Source: Myrmaecium sp. VS I D KN 1 (taxonomy: Eukaryota > Ascomycota > Dothideomycetes > Valsariales > Valsariaceae). Taken from it: a stretch of 64,000 nt of DNA. The notes below the pieces were generated by a model, which saw nothing but the letters and a program-made list of their open reading frames with translations, searched no databases and was not told the DNA's origin. The stretch's first letter is position 1, and each line of letters starts with the position of its first letter. Location of the stretch: NCBI GenBank assembly GCA_019775845.1, contig JADQAV010000031.1, forward strand, positions 186,138 through 250,137, read 5' to 3'. A program made the translations under genes and the position numbers. Shown here in pieces: positions 9,228 to 19,471 of this stretch.

Positions 9228-9995
9228 TCAGGGATTCCGTCTTTTCCTGAAGCATATGGTGCAGACTTGCTGCCCAGTCTTCCCTCCAAAGGTAAACCGC
9301 GGGTATTCCACCTCGCTTTCGAACTCGAAGCCACTCCCCTCGCCAGTGAACCACCCCTTGATCTCATCATTCGTCCAGTTGCAGCTGGTGATCAGAAACC
9401 TGCCGCCCTCCTTCACCAGCGGCTCGACTCTCTCCCGATACCCCTCCACCACTCTCCTTCCCCGATCATCCGTCTCCGCAGACAGACTGATCGCGTCAAA
9501 CGTCCCCTTATCCAGCACGACATCAAACCCATCCTGCAGCCACTCATCCCTCGGGGGATTCCTAAGCAGATCCCAGACCTCAAAATCGCACTCCCGATAC
9601 GCCTGCGCCATCTCCGCGCCATCCTCCTGCTCCCCCTCCTCCTCCGCCGCCTCCCTCGCCCTCGTCTCCCGTATCGTCCGACACAGCCGCACGCTCGTCT
9701 CAGAGTAATCCACGCCGACCTTCCTGCCCCTCCAGCCCTCCTCCACCAAGGAAAAAATCAGGTGTCCGTTGCCGGTGCCGAGGTCCAGGAAGGAGGAGGC
9801 GTCGCCGTCGGCGAGCTCCCCGCCGTCGGCCAGCGCGCGCAGGTGCGACAGCATGCGCTCCTCCGCGCTCGCGTCCGCGAACCAGATCGTGCCCTCGTCC
9901 GAGGGTTGCGAGGCGTGGTTCTGCAGCTCGACCGTGTACGCTTCGTCCCAGTGGGATTTCGTGCCGAGTGAGGAGGGGTCGAGGTGCTCGGGCAT
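9228..9995 (-). CDS. EFM4: Efm4-like EF1A lysine methyltransferase
   Basis: A single-exon gene of 255 residues. The start (MPEHLDPSSLGTKSHWDEAY) has the family signature LGTKxxWDxxY. Motif I is SFLDLGTGNGHLIF at about 95-108. The post-motif DVVLDKGTFDAISLS and the late ITSCNWTNDEI match fungal Efm4 and animal METTL10/EEF1AKMT2, which methylate a lysine of elongation factor 1A in the cytosol. Length is that expected. An Arg/Glu-rich insertion (about 140-155) follows the helix after motif I. It runs tail to tail with another methyltransferase of a different subfamily. Confidence 0.93.
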   Translation of the reverse strand: MPEHLDPSSLGTKSHWDEAYTVELQNHASQPSDEGTIWFADASAEERMLSHLRALADGGELADGDASSFLDLGTGNGHLIFSLVEEGWRGRKVGVDYSETSVRLCRTIRETRAREAAEEEGEQEDGAEMAQAYRECDFEVWDLLRNPPRDEWLQDGFDVVLDKGTFDAISLSAETDDRGRRVVEGYRERVEPLVKEGGRFLITSCNWTNDEIKGWFTGEGSGFEFESEVEYPRFTFGGKTGQQVCTICFRKRRNP

Positions 9996-10189
9996 CGTTC
10001 TGGACAGAGGTCTGATTTACTCCTGGTTGGTATTGGCGTGAGAGACTGAGAGGGAAATCCGCGAGAGGTCAGCTAGTTATTGTGTAGGAGCTGCGAAAAG
10101 TGACAGGCGGAGAGCGGAGAACTTGAAAACCCGGCGGTTTTCATGGACCGTTGACGTAGCTCTTCGCTTAACAGGGTCCATCGCCTTTT

Positions 10190-13191: not shown

Positions 13192-15312
13192 ATGTCCGTC
13201 TCACCCGCATCCGCCATGAAACCAACGACGTCCGGCCCTGCAGACGGCCTCAGGCAGCCTGACGGCCATGCCCGCACCGGGACCGGTTCCTTAGTCATCG
13301 CCGGCTCCGGGATTGCCAGCGTGGCCCACATGACGCTGGAAACGCTGCAGCATATCAAGCAGGCCGACAAGGTCTTCTACCTCGTCTGTGATCCCGTCAC
13401 CGAGGCCTTCCTGCAGGAGCATAGCAAAGAACACCATGACCTCAACATCCTCTACGACACCCACAAGCCGCGGATGGAGACCTACGTGCAGATGGCCGAG
13501 GTCATGCTCAAGGAAGTCCGCCGCGGCTTCTCCGTCGTCGGTGTCTTCTACGGCCATCCGACAGTCTTCGTCTATCCGACTCGTCGTGCCATTGCAATTG
13601 CCTTGGAAGAAGGCTATCCGGCCAAGATCCTCCCCGGAATCTCTGCCGAAGACTGCATGTTTGCCGACCTAAACATCGATCCCAGCGACCCTGGCTGTGT
13701 CACTTACGAAGCCACCGACTTCCTCGCCCGCGATCGCGCGCTGGATGTGAACAGCCACTTGATCCTGTGGCAGGTCGGTTGCGTCGGTGTTCGGGACCTG
13801 AACTTCCAGAATGAGCATTTCAACTCTCTTGTCGCCAGGCTGGAAGCCGAGTATGGCCCGGACCACTCGATCATCCATTACATGGCTCCTGTGCTCCCGC
13901 AGGACAAGACCGTCATGGACCGCTTCTCCGTGAAGGAGTTGCGCAGCCCTGAGGTCCAGCGCCAAGTTACCTCTTGCTCGACTTTTTATATTGCTCCAAA
14001 GGGCCCAGCGCCCTTGAAACGCGATATAGCTATCGCTCTGGGTATCATCAAAGACTCCCAGCAGCCTACTCCCACGATGTCCCAACTGCCCTACAACTCC
14101 TCTTTCCGCCACTCCAACCTCGATCTCCCTACGCGACCTGCCTACGGAACCTTCGAACGCCGCGCTGTCGAAGAGTTGGGGAACCACACTACCCCCTCCA
14201 TCTACCGCGGTCTTCACGCAACCCCTGCCATGAAGCGCTTGACTATCGCTCTTTCAACTGATCCTTCCCTTTCGCGCAACTACATGCAGGATCCGTCCCA
14301 CATCATCAAGAACACCCCCGGCTTGTCAGCCAAGGAAGCTCTTGCTCTTCTCCGCCGTGACCCCGGATTAGTCCGCGCAGTCATGCGCGACGATGTCTCC
14401 ACCGAGACCCCTTCATCCTCTAACACCTCAGACCACGCCGTCAACACCGAGAACCCCGACGCACCAACCCCTCCCGCTTCCGCCATCTCCAAGCGCCGCA
14501 GCGATATCGTTGTCGTCCCATCCGGCACGGACGATTTCCTCGAGTCTCCCCCATCCTCCCCACGCACCCCGCAGCGTAAATCGGCGATTCTCGTCGTCGA
14601 TGCTCTCGAAGCGACTACGGGCCAAGAACGTGGTGTTGCTAGCTCGCAAGGTTCTCGCGAAGCCGGCATTGAAACATCTGCCGGCTTCCTGCGCGAGTCG
14701 CCGATTATCGTGTACCCGAATGCTCCGGAGACTGCGGATGACGGTGAAACGTCTGCTGGCTTCCTTCGCGAGTCGCCGATTATCGTGTATCCGAACGCTC
14801 CGGAGACTGTGGATGACGGTGAACCATCTGCTGGCTTCCTTCGCGAGTCGCCGATTATCGTTTACCCGAACGCTCCTGAGACTGTGGACGACAGTGAAAC
14901 AACTACTGGCTTCCTTCGCGAGTCGCCCATCATCGTTTACCCCAACGCTCCAGAGACTCCCGACGATGACTCCGACAGTCGGGACCAGCACGCTTATCGC
15001 AACTCCGCCATTGTCGTCGTGCCCTCCTCTCCAGAGAGCCCCGACGGCGATGACGGCAAAAAGAACGCCGACGCAGCGTCGGGGGTCCCGGGAAAAACCA
15101 GCTCCCCTTCCCCCATTGCCTGCCAGCGCACCTCCTCCATCGTAGTCTCCGCAGCCACGCTCGGTCCCTTCGACGACAACAACAACAACGAGGCCAACCC
15201 CACCCACAGCCACCGAAACACCGCCATCGTGGTCGTCGCAGCCGAACTCACCGGCGGCGCGACCGGCATGCCAGGTATGACCTCGGGCCGCGCTGCCATC
15301 GCAGTCGCCTAA
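13192..15312 (+). CDS. Borosin precursor: OphMA-like alpha-N-methyltransferase fused to a multi-core peptide tail
   Basis: An intronless 706-residue frame. Residues about 30-285 are a tetrapyrrole-methylase (SAM) fold closely resembling the omphalotin precursor OphMA: GSLVIAGSGIASV, VFYLVCDPVTEAF, VVGVFYGHPTVFV, LPGISAEDCMFADL, PGCVTYEATDFL, HLILWQVGCVGV. By alignment from memory, OphMA catalytic R72 and Y76 correspond to R94 and Y98 here, Y66 to Y88, and Y98 to Y120; OphMA Y63 is Asn85. Residues about 341-399 match the OphMA clasp (MKRLTIALSTDPSL ... RRDPGLVRAVM). After a Pro/Ser linker, residues 435-706 hold nine or ten hydrophobic units beginning Arg-x-[Ser/Thr]-x-Ile. Borosins methylate backbone amides of their own C-terminal core, which is then released as a peptide. 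There is no signal peptide. The first in-frame ATG is used; M9 is an alternative. No peptidase gene is adjacent. The enzyme assignment is strong; which residues are methylated is inference. Confidence 0.93.
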   Translation: MSVSPASAMKPTTSGPADGLRQPDGHARTGTGSLVIAGSGIASVAHMTLETLQHIKQADKVFYLVCDPVTEAFLQEHSKEHHDLNILYDTHKPRMETYVQMAEVMLKEVRRGFSVVGVFYGHPTVFVYPTRRAIAIALEEGYPAKILPGISAEDCMFADLNIDPSDPGCVTYEATDFLARDRALDVNSHLILWQVGCVGVRDLNFQNEHFNSLVARLEAEYGPDHSIIHYMAPVLPQDKTVMDRFSVKELRSPEVQRQVTSCSTFYIAPKGPAPLKRDIAIALGIIKDSQQPTPTMSQLPYNSSFRHSNLDLPTRPAYGTFERRAVEELGNHTTPSIYRGLHATPAMKRLTIALSTDPSLSRNYMQDPSHIIKNTPGLSAKEALALLRRDPGLVRAVMRDDVSTETPSSSNTSDHAVNTENPDAPTPPASAISKRRSDIVVVPSGTDDFLESPPSSPRTPQRKSAILVVDALEATTGQERGVASSQGSREAGIETSAGFLRESPIIVYPNAPETADDGETSAGFLRESPIIVYPNAPETVDDGEPSAGFLRESPIIVYPNAPETVDDSETTTGFLRESPIIVYPNAPETPDDDSDSRDQHAYRNSAIVVVPSSPESPDGDDGKKNADAASGVPGKTSSPSPIACQRTSSIVVSAATLGPFDDNNNNEANPTHSHRNTAIVVVAAELTGGATGMPGMTSGRAAIAVA
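14494..15309 (+). other. Multi-core region of the borosin precursor
   Basis: Residues 435-706 of the precursor. An arginine sits exactly four residues before the Ile of an Ile-aliphatic-Val run nine times: R435 (SDIVVVPSG), R462 (SAILVVDAL), R501, R526, R551 and R576 (all SPIIVYPNAPE), R603 (SAIVVVPSSPE), R646 (SSIVVSAAT) and R675 (TAIVVVAAE). A degenerate tenth copy, RAAIAVA at R700, forms the exact C-terminus. Arginine codons start at 14494, 14575, 14692, 14767, 14842, 14917, 14998, 15127, 15214 and 15289. Segments between cores are rich in Asp, Glu, Ser, Thr, Pro and Gly. The first two cores are preceded by dibasic pairs (KRR, RK); the rest by a single Arg. Confidence 0.8.
14674..14973 (+). 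repeat. Four 75-bp in-frame tandem repeats encoding identical cores
   Basis: Four consecutive 25-codon units encode residues 495-519, 520-544, 545-569 and 570-594. Each reads roughly TSAGFLRESPIIVYPNAPET followed by an acidic D-rich end. The RESPIIVYPNAPET part is identical at protein level in all four, while changes are confined to the linker and to a few third codon positions. This indicates recent duplication or homogenisation by unequal exchange, in contrast to the outer, diverged cores of the same tail. Confidence 0.95.
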
Positions 15313-16242: not shown

Positions 16243-18617
16243 CTAACGTTCCGCTTTCTCCCCTCCCTCGCCGCGGTCCTTTGCCCTCCCTTCGTTCCCC
16301 AGCCCATGTTCCACCGTAACCTCATCTCCCCGCCCACCACCGCTTCTCCTCCGCTCCTCCCTCTCACAATCCCTCACCCTCCACTCCTCATCCCCACCAC
16401 CCCCCTCCCTCCCACCACCAACACCATGCGCACCCCCCACACTCTCCATCACAAACGCCCCCGCCGTCGGCTCATCCAGCACCGCCAAAGCCTCGGGCCG
16501 CCAAAAAAAGCGAGGCATGAGCCAGGTGCGGACGGGGATGAGAGCGAGGATGACGACAGGGAAGCCGATGGCGGCGACGGTCTGGGTGAGGGCGAAGGTG
16601 GCGGCGAAGCCGAGGAGCGCGAAGGCGACGAAGGCGGCGGTTTCGCGGCGGCCGCGGGGGGTGGCGGTGAGGCGGGTGAGCGGGTCGTCGTCGTGGCGGT
16701 GACGCAGTAGCAGTAGGGTTGGGTCGGTGAAGAGGTGCAGGAGCTTGTGGGTGAGGCCGTTGGCTTCGAGGGCTTGGATGCCCATGACGAAGAAGAGGCC
16801 GGCGAGCACGGCTTGGGGGATCAGGTGGAGGACGATGAGGAGGGGGCCGGTCATGGTGCCGAGGGTCAGGAGGCCCTGCGCGAGGTTGGAGACGCGCTGC
16901 TCGACGACGTGGGAGATGGTGCGGTGGGGTCGGGTGGGGGGTGTTTGTTGTTGTTTTTCGGGGTCTGCTGGGGAGTCGGCGACGGCGGTCGAGGAGGATG
17001 ATGTGGAGGCGTCGATGACGGTGTGTGTTACGCAAAGTGAGGTAGTGTGGAAGGGGGCTTGAGGGATGAGGCCGTTGGGAAAGGGAAGTCCGAGGAGGCC
17101 TGCGACGCCGGTGGTGATGCCGAGAAGGAAGAGGTCCCAGTGGAAGCCAGCGGGTTTGCGGAGGGGAAATTCGCTCCCTTGGGCGATCAGAGACGAGACT
17201 ATGGATGAAGCTTAGTATAGGTACTCGAGGGCGGTCATAGACAACATACCATTGTGATCAAAATAGAAAAGGATGGTCAACAGGACCGCAAACGGGATGG
17301 CAAGGAAAACATCGCCGACGTCAATCTTCCAGAAGTCGACGAACCAGCCGCGATCGGTGGTGGGAAAGAAGGCCTTGCCCGTCGGCAAAGTCTGCAGATC
17401 TACACTACGCATCTTGCCGATATGAACAAAGCCGGTGAAGAACACCACGCACAGAGGAGTGCCGTAGTCCTCGATGAACTTGCGGATGTGGCGCGGGAAC
17501 AGTTTCGAGTGTCCGATGACTCCACAGCCATAGGCGGCCATAAGGAAAAGCAAAGAAACCATGATACTGAGGTAAGCCGCGGTGTCTGGATTCGACCCAT
17601 CCGATACGTCCCATTGCCGGGTCAGCACCTGAACGCCTTTTTGGAGATAGATGAAAGCGACGTAGAAGCCGAAGATGTCGCAGCTGAAGCGTGTCACATA
17701 TCTGAGGCCAATGCAAGCATTGGAGATGGCGAGGATCCAGTGGAAAAGAAGGGACCAACTACGCCGGTTAGCATATCCGTCGGTCTCATCTACGAGGGGT
17801 CATATCTCACAGTCCGATCCAGCACATGAATGCAAAATAATTAGTCCCTCTCGGGGTGATGATATCGTACACCGTGTAATTGAACACCGTTATCGGACCT
17901 GGACGAGTCAGCACCGGTACACACATTTCTCCACAGGAAGAAAAGAACTGTCCATACTCACCAGTAACACCCACAATGACCAGCGGTTGCGCCGCAAAAA
18001 TGGAAAACACCACCGCGCCCAGAACGGACGATAACAACACCTCGTTAACGCCAAAGCTCATATCCGTCTTCGAGAACATATCAAGCGAGAAGGCAAGGGC
18101 CGGCATGATACTAGAGTAAATTCCAAGCAAATCAGCAAACCAAAATCCGCCGCACACGCTTACGAAAGGAAAACGGCACTCAACACAACGCCGCACAGGA
18201 ACTCTCGACGGGAAGACCAAGACCAAGACGACAACCTACGTACTTAGCAAAATACATATACACCGTCGCCGGCACGACCCGATAATCCCACGCGTCCGTC
18301 CAGTCGCTCGCGTAGTACGGCAGTCGACGTCGCACGTCCGCGACCATGCCCCGGAAGACATGGATCCGCCACCATGCCTCCGGCTCTTCACCTTCTCGCG
18401 TCTGCCCGTGCTCGTGCTCGCGGGGTGTCGGACTCGAGGCGCGGCGCGCGGCAGGTTGTACGTCGCCCACCGGCTCGTCGTCTTGTGCATCGTGGATGTG
18501 GCGCGCGCGGGAGGAGTCGAAGGGGATGCGGTGACGCAGCGGCCTTTGGTGTATTGGTGATGTGGCGGAGGGGTTGTTGTTGTCGTCGTCGGCGGCGGCG
18601 GCGGCGGTGGTTGTCAT
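16243..18617 (-). CDS. BOR1: Bor1-type HCO3-/borate transporter family membrane protein
   Basis: Five exons (18617-18244, 18110-17962, 17898-17811, 17758-17250, 17198-16243) with consistent phases give 691 residues. After a polar N-terminal tail, the SLC4-like transporter core is clear: YYASDWTDAWDYRVVPATVYMYFAN, IMPALAFSLDMFSKTDMSFGVNEVL, QPLVIVGVTG, PITVFNYTVYDII, YVTRFSCDIFGFYVAFIYLQKG and LGLPFPNGLIPQAPFHT. Multiple hydrophobic segments run through exons 2-5. Yeast Bor1 exports borate across the plasma membrane; plant and fungal relatives act similarly, but anion specificity is not readable here. The last 60 residues are a Gly/Arg/Glu-rich cytosolic tail. The acceptor of exon 2 was chosen because it restores YFAN-IMPALAF. 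Nothing links it to borosin chemistry, where boro- is unrelated to boron. Confidence 0.9.
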
Positions 18618-19471
18618 GGTTTTTGTCTTGTCTTCGTGCGGCGTCGAGTCGGTGTGAGGGAGCGGAGGGATTGATGATGTCAGGGGAAGGAGAAACAGCG
18701 ATTGAACGACTCGGAGTGAGCAGCCGCCATCGGCGAGGGTATCGGAATGAGACTTTAGGGAGGGAAGGATTGTGCGATTGGCATGGTGAGGGTAGGAATT
18801 GCGGTTTCTATACAGGAGTACTACTGTAGGTAGGACGTCGGCCTGTCGGGATAACAAGCCGTCTGGACCCTGGCCGGGCGGCAAGCGAAAGGCGGAAGCG
18901 GAGGCGGAGGCGGAGGCGGAAGCGGAGGCGGGACGGACTTGGCATGTGTAGTTCACCTAAATATCACCGCAATGACAAGGACATCATCTATACTCAAGAT
19001 GCAAAATCACACGCATAGAACCGGAAGTATTACATTTTCATAACCTTTTCCCTTAACGTCCGTCACCTCTGGAAAAAAAGAAAGCATCATTTGATAAAGA
19101 AACTAGAGAAGCACGAGCGAGCAACAACCCAGGCGCATTATCCCTCAATCCATACGCGTCATTGCGCGATCCTCAAAGATCTCCACCATCGAGATATTCC
19201 AGACAAGTCGTCAAATCCATGAACGCCTTTCCTGCCCAAACCTCAATCGGCTCAAGCATATTCTCAGGCATGGAACTCCAGATGTTGGATAGCTAGATCG
19301 CAATCGCTGAACCGAAAGCAACGTGAAAGTCGACGGACCAGCTTCTCAGGAGGGGAACGCCGAGATCCGACACGAATCCTCAAGTGTAGAAGATCAGACG
19401 GCTGCCCACGGAGAAAGGGAGGGGAGAGATCGGTAGCCATGATCAAGAGGCAGCATCACACGCCGGTCCAC
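18618..19471. other. Intergenic; BOR1 leader and SPP1 3' flank
   Basis: The stretch holds a purine-rich hexamer tract (GGAGGC/GGAAGC units) at about 18891-18932. No conserved protein is visible; a 60-codon minus-strand frame at 19264-19446 could at most be an extra 3' exon of the neighbouring PHD gene, but nothing supports this beyond a GTGAGT near that gene's stop codon. Confidence 0.45.

Follow-up and report, generated by a model that had tools for sequence, protein, structure and literature searches.

A borosin-type gene with a tail of about ten core-like units in a probable filamentous ascomycete

The window analysed here is a 64,000-nucleotide stretch of contig JADQAV010000031.1, and its element of interest is a borosin-type gene that probably encodes a fused precursor of α-N-methylated peptides. 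The gene is one open frame of 706 codons from ATG to TAA with no internal stop, and its protein gives a single self-match in the 25.66-Mb genome. As shown in Table 1, it consists of a TP_methylase-type domain, a clasp-equivalent region, which was placed with the OphMA clasp bounds given in PMC6108569, and a long tail carrying the core-like units. The GC content at third codon positions (GC3) is 0.74 over the methyltransferase, 0.69 over the clasp, and 0.68 over the tail. No secretory signal peptide is apparent at the N-terminus by hydropathy; the best 15-residue window starting in residues 1-25 averages 0.25. This is consistent with the cytoplasmic processing of borosins described in PMC9769878. 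Opposite the repeat tail lies an antisense frame, which is probably a by-product of the repeated codons.

Table 1. Features of the borosin-type locus and of the frames around it (positions in the window; aa, amino acids)
Feature	Position	Strand	Basis or remark
Fused borosin-type precursor gene, 706 aa	13192..15312	+	Uninterrupted frame; single genome match
TP_methylase-type α-N-methyltransferase domain, about aa 30-270	13279..14001	+	Pfam, PDB alignments, residue columns
Clasp-equivalent region, about aa 271-401	14002..14394	+	phmmer alignment to dbOphMA; bounds are the authors' reading
Acidic Ser/Pro/Ala-rich core-array tail, aa 425-706	14464..15309	+	Composition, GC3
Core unit 1, aa 435-461, RRSDIVVVPSGTDD...	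14494..14574	+	
Core unit 2, aa 462-500, RKSAILVVDALE...	14575..14691	+	
Core units 3-6, aa 501-602, four near-identical RESPIIVYPNAPET copies, period 25 aa/75 bp	14692..14997	+	
Core unit 7, aa 603-645, RNSAIVVVPSSPESPDGDD...	14998..15126	+	
Core unit 8, aa 646-674, RTSSIVVSAATLGPFDD...	15127..15213	+	
Core unit 9, aa 675-699, RNTAIVVVAAELTGG...	15214..15288	+	
Terminal unit 10, aa 700-706, RAAIAVA-COOH	15289..15309	+	Looser than the strict motif
Antisense frame, 320 aa	14428-15390	-	
HCO3_cotransp gene (borate/bicarbonate transporter-like), over several frames	16246-18956	-	
Methyltransf_31 frame	9231-10016	-	Considered as tailoring gene, set aside

The Pfam scan of the 706-aa protein places TP_methylase (PF00590) on aa 34-187 (E 5.6e-17). 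When the PDB is searched by sequence, dbOphMA (6mjg) aligns to aa 26-413 (E 3.8e-107; about 45% identity over about 380 residues of methyltransferase and clasp), MroMA1 to aa 30-403 (E 3.3e-103; MroMA1 and MroMA2 are both at about 3e-103), and OphMA to aa 28-408 (E about 1e-100). The split bacterial enzyme SonM follows these fused borosins (E 1e-32). Fused borosins rank first and SonM second also with a query profile made from the protein and five ascomycete relatives. Because the alignments to the fused borosins extend to aa 401-413, they include the clasp. The searches support fused borosins of the OphMA kind as the closest apparent kin of the methyltransferase and clasp.

PF00590 is also a domain of siroheme- and diphthine-type enzymes, and the protein might be an ordinary TP_methylase of that type followed by a low-complexity tail. 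We find this hardly credible. The match to siroheme synthase is confined to aa 31-154 and has E 0.004, compared with 1e-107 for dbOphMA. The genome has other TP_methylase loci: contig C64 contains one match, and C5 two neighbouring ones that are probably one gene. Of the NCBIfam models, YabN ranks highest, with 40.8 bits where its cut-off is 525; the siroheme, uroporphyrinogen, and precorrin ones reach at most 21 bits, with cut-offs of at least 163. From the PDB E-values and the NCBIfam scores below cut-offs, identity as a siroheme or diphthine synthase is rejected at the sequence level.

Among the 28 rows of the alignment, R94 and Y98 are kept in 27 (the remaining row has a gap) and Y120 in all. 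By position they correspond to R72, Y76, and Y98 in dbOphMA (P0004). As reported in PMC6108569, methylation was not detectable in the purified OphMA variants R72A, R72K, Y76F, Y98F, and Y98A; after 12 days with S-adenosylmethionine (SAM), Y98A was singly methylated and the methylation of R72A was at the detection limit. The retention here of residues essential in OphMA supports the borosin reading. Y88 and Q194 are also conserved in the domain. The original prediction had proposed an OphMA-like methyltransferase with conserved Arg94, Tyr98, and Tyr120, a clasp after it, and hence a borosin architecture; all of this is borne out as far as homology to the enzymes of solved structure can tell, and the better match to a siroheme or diphthine synthase that might have spoken against it was looked for and did not appear.

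The tail of 282 residues has an isoelectric point (pI) of 4.4 and is rich in Ser, Ala, and Pro. Directly after the clasp, in aa 435-706, it contains about ten core-like units of the form R-x-S-x-I-V-V-V/Y-(P), which start at aa 435, 462, 501, 526, 551, 576, 603, 646, 675, and 700 and are therefore spaced by 27, 39, 25, 25, 25, 27, 43, 29, and 25 residues (range 25-43). The hydrophobic core sequence that had been predicted C-terminal to the clasp is thus present, but as about ten units and not as one region. The strict motif R-x-[STA]-x-I-[VILA]-[VS] occurs nine times in the tail, while 20,000 shuffled tails average 0.016 and never exceed 2. If the tandem copies are reduced from four to one, six strict motifs are left against at most two in shuffles, so that a chance origin of the array is rejected with or without these copies.

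The four tandem copies (units 3-6) differ mainly at silent sites. Over their six pairs, 38 codon differences are synonymous and 19 non-synonymous, and of 66 base differences in the 25-aa copies 16, 7, and 43 are at codon positions 1, 2, and 3, respectively. GFLRESPIIVYPNAPET is invariant in all four. The bias toward third positions and the invariant segment indicate that the protein sequence of the repeats has been kept; most likely the array is coding and its protein sequence is maintained. Note that a single Arg precedes eight of the ten units, whereas dibasic pairs are found only at units 1 (aa 434) and 2 (aa 462), a third pair (aa 623) being outside the cores.

When aa 425-706 alone was used as the query, no protein relative was found among the 8000 candidates scored. 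All protein searches here scored the 8000 candidates sharing most words, and an array elsewhere could be missed. Nor was a second copy of the tail found in the genome (next best E 0.47). With neither a second genomic copy nor a protein relative, a transposable or widespread low-complexity element is rejected as the source of the tail. By tail similarity the genome also showed no separate precursor on which the enzyme would act in trans, although a dissimilar one would escape that search.

The whole-protein search gave 45 hits, the best of which by E-value is 49% identical over half of the query (methyltransferase and clasp). The profile search gave 216, of which the best 120 were examined. Hits include Whalleya microplaca, Nemania sp., Xylariaceae sp. 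FL1019, Aspergillus tamarii, Dactylella cylindrospora, and Xylaria arbuscula (a partial record), all six of which we take to be ascomycetes. Each of the six has one main Ile/Val-rich C-terminal run of 7-13 residues, at the same place after the clasp. Two xylarialean proteins end in RHSVLVA and RKLILVS (R-x-x-[IV]-L-V-[AS]), resembling the RAAIAVA end of the present protein. The Xylaria arbuscula record (P0050) ends, after the clasp, in eight consecutive valines, an extreme borosin core.

The repeat scan took in 21 proteins, each 380 aa or longer and with a tail of 40 residues or more; tails below this length were judged by eye. Repeat tails are found in the present protein, P0038, and P0042; P0022 has Thr/Asp low complexity and P0027 two weak pairs. 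No comparable R-x-S-x-I-V-V array is present in the other fungal relatives examined. Among 129 compared proteins, the strict motif occurs nine times here, once each in P0111 (282 aa) and P0112 (283 aa), and is absent from the remaining 126. P0038 and P0042 are metagenomic, P0042 being named as from a Pseudomonadota metagenome-assembled genome (MAG), and have a methyltransferase followed by tandem SDTDIAVTPD-type units, which looks like an independent case of a repeat-tail borosin. We count their tails in favour of the reading of the present protein as a repeat-tail borosin. Some relatives are unusual in other ways. P0041 (Mya arenaria) and P0053 (Oscarella lobularis) are animal-named proteins with a borosin-type methyltransferase that share one tree branch with long metagenomic forms, and P0041 ends in the hydrophobic VVVVAVVIIMA. 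P0016 (545 aa) and P0029 (515 aa) each appear by eye to have two tandem TP_methylase-like halves.

The tree was made from 42 rows that we picked from the 129 proteins, long rows being cut at 430 or 470 aa. Basidiomycete and metagenome sequences (Serendipita, Ceratobasidium, Astraeus, and others) form the sister clade of the present protein, with support of 97/92. Next outside are three xylarialean proteins (94/88), and three other ascomycete proteins are further off. One clade of all ascomycete borosins including the present protein is rejected by the approximately unbiased test (p-AU 0.0016), but grouping it with the three xylarialean proteins costs 5.7 log-likelihood units and is not rejected (p-AU 0.086). 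The placement near the basidiomycete clade may reflect old paralogy or transfer.

The host appears to be a filamentous ascomycete, which is well supported by a Prp8 frame, a carrier frame, and the several neighbouring frames that are long and uninterrupted. A 1327-aa part of the Prp8 frame scores 2257.6 bits against fission yeast spp42, 2280.2 against human Prp8, and about 1924 against a row that we take to be budding yeast. Against Prp8 of Chaetomium thermophilum (chain 9l5r, PMC11958768) it scores 2759.5 bits. The nominal top row, 9r8v, owes its 2916.7 to the addition of two overlapping stretches, of which the better scores 2279.0. For the ADP/ATP carrier frame, 6gci is best at 484.7 bits, followed by carriers 2 and 3 at 438.4 and 431.5; 6gci is presumably from a filamentous ascomycete and the other two from budding yeast. 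The original prediction had seen an ascomycete host as a departure from the well-studied basidiomycete members. The Prp8 scores uphold the host, but it is not a novelty, borosin-like ascomycete proteins being already in public databases.

We scanned 35 flanking frames against Pfam, 34 of at least 180 aa (69 frames listed) and one of 142 aa, and 20 of the 35 matched a family. These are ING-like, DEDDh_C, general methyltransferase, HCO3_cotransp (three frames), PHD, chalcone-isomerase-like, mitochondrial carrier, ERG4/ERG24, mannose-6-phosphate-receptor/ATG27-like, HEAT, TPT1, MIOS (two frames), Efg1, DUF7923 with CCCH fingers (two frames), histidine kinase, and lipase. The recognised neighbours look like housekeeping genes, in agreement with the neighbourhood originally proposed. 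The HCO3_cotransp gene stands beside the borosin-type gene and is convergent with it. An omphalotin-like cluster was rejected, no protease or P450 domain being found in the 35 frames, in which intron-split genes could be missed.

Elsewhere in the genome, PF02897, the N-domain of prolyl oligopeptidase, has no match; the control was positive in 5 of 14 genomes, all bacterial, and an intron-split gene could escape. PF00326 (S9) has four matches, on contigs C2 and C20 and none on the contig of the window (C23), two of them being adjacent and probably exons of one gene. There is one P_proprotein (kexin-type) locus. With no OphP-type N-domain found in the genome and no peptidase recognised among the scanned neighbours, the methylated tail may stay uncut and the whole methylated protein may be the functional form, for example as a protease-resistant or self-associating surface. 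The leading arginines might then be incidental, 5 of the 15 tail arginines starting no unit. The missing local peptidase is weak evidence, however, as the first cut of omphalotin is itself ascribed to an unidentified host protease, to which preliminary data give the proteasome as a candidate, and OphP acts on the already freed peptide (PMC12235650). For this reason, the lack of a detected OphP suggests that the products are linear or that a different macrocyclase acts, not that there is no product. We regard an uncut tail as rather improbable.

We consider it probable that this filamentous ascomycete gene encodes a fused borosin precursor, whose multi-unit tail would yield α-N-methylated Ile/Val-rich peptides. 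The methyltransferase and clasp would form an interlocked (catenane-like) dimer, in which each active site methylates backbone amides of the partner's C-terminal tail in a SAM-dependent way and with little side-chain specificity. Such methylation across a clasped dimer is supported by homology to OphMA. The long, flexible, acidic tail would present its ten Arg-led hydrophobic units to the active site in turn. PMC6108569 describes OphMA as having no specific contacts to substrate side chains, and as many as 11 modifications are reported within residues 742-796 of the bacterial type III borosin KchMA (PMC11395268); together these make a long tail with spaced cores mechanistically plausible. One precursor would then give many α-N-methylated peptides, mainly of the ESPIIVYPNAP and IVVVP types. 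A general host protease may release the units, perhaps by cutting after the leading Arg, with no OphP-type macrocyclase, and the released peptides may be linear. To the complete scheme, that is, about ten cores methylated in the dimer partner, a mixed peptide library of four copies of one sequence and six variants, release by a general protease after the leading Arg, and no OphP-type macrocyclase, we give somewhat less than an even chance.

Several points weigh against this interpretation. Dimerisation, methylation, cleavage, and the product are inferred. The cores are short, with 4-5 hydrophobic residues against the longer runs of the six ascomycete relatives, and neither a tailoring enzyme nor a protease was recognised in the 35 Pfam-scanned flanking frames. 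As to the lack of an OphP, an S9 enzyme with no detected S9A N-domain could take part in processing, because other PF00326 loci exist and PMC9769878 names S9-family oligopeptidases as processing borosins.

Two further points concern residues of the methyltransferase. At the position of OphMA Y63, whose change to Phe reduced methylation in OphMA, stands N85; this column is variable, with Tyr in 11 of the 28 rows. At T124 (13561-13563), the protein has Thr for the G of YGHPG that all other 27 rows have, which could lower or change the methyltransferase activity. If T124 impairs the enzyme, the locus may be decaying or repurposed, which we think very unlikely. The frame of 706 aa is intact, GC3 is similar over the three parts, the differences between repeats are biased to silent sites, and R94, Y98, and Y120 are retained.

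The main rival concerns the tail. Its hydrophobic tetrads flanked by Ser and acidic residues also fit SUMO-interacting motifs (SIMs), so that the tail might be a linear array of protein-docking motifs and the protein a backbone methyltransferase that SUMO chains recruit for a regulatory role. PMC12751080 describes the SIM core as four residues, three or more of them of Val/Ile/Leu type, with a contribution from acidic and phosphorylatable flanks. Among the units, RRSDIVVVPSGTDD and RNSAIVVVPSSPESPDGDD, for example, agree with this description, and a loose SIM pattern (a hydrophobic four-residue core with an acidic/Ser flank) fits units 1-8 by eye. We nevertheless hold a SIM array to be unlikely. 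Units 9 and 10 contain only 1 and 0 acidic residues, the methyltransferase and clasp belong to self-substrate enzymes, and the relatives with a single core place it at the same position. A comparable repeat tail is also found in P0042, and SUMO is not expected in Pseudomonadota.

As a borosin precursor, the protein appears to be new in one respect. Fungal fused borosins and ascomycete borosin-like proteins are already known, and the abstract of Quijano 2019 (JACS) reportedly mentions ascomycete as well as basidiomycete pathways; the reiteration of the core in the fused form appears to be new. No fungal fused borosin with a core array directly after the clasp was found in the database searches or in the literature searched, which did not include the founding typing papers. 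As with the multi-core precursors of dikaritins, such an array would lower the cost of each product; it would also be a natural template for chains that each encode several N-methylated peptides. It raises the question of how a single active site deals with cores that lie anywhere from about 10 to 280 residues past the start of the tail. The gene also offers a testable case of borosin maturation with no detected prolyl oligopeptidase and, as an ascomycete borosin placed apart from the other six in the tree, bears on the spread of the family in fungi.

Among known systems, OphMA, dbOphMA, and MroMA1 share with the present protein the methyltransferase and clasp, the equivalents of R72, Y76, and Y98, and a hydrophobic substrate after the clasp. 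While proteins of the OphMA kind carry at their end a single core of about 12 residues, and an SVMSTE-type follower, here a 282-residue tail has about ten units and no such follower. The omphalotin tail model NF038374 gives dbOphMA 86.7 bits and does not list the present protein at E up to 1. An omphalotin-type cluster has a prolyl oligopeptidase of the OphP kind, whereas PF02897 is not found in this genome. Ascomycete borosin-like proteins have the same two-domain layout and an Ile/Val-rich C-terminal core, but one hydrophobic run each in place of about ten units.

Type III borosins (AboMA, KchMA) are alike in their long precursor and their long, acidic-interrupted substrate region. The comparison was made with long relatives that resemble type III (P0019, P0022, P0026, P0027, and P0035); these relatives have several hundred extra residues after the clasp, whereas here the array follows it directly. 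P0038 and P0042 also combine a methyltransferase with a tandem-repeat tail, but their SDTDIAVTPD-type unit has an acidic residue inside it and they lie on a distant tree branch. Precursors of dikaritins and other KEX2-processed peptides carry a signal peptide and dibasic KEX2 sites, as described in PMC9769878. Unlike these, the present protein has no apparent signal peptide, a single Arg before eight of ten units, and its modifying enzyme fused to the precursor. What it has in common with them is many near-identical short cores with a basic residue before each.

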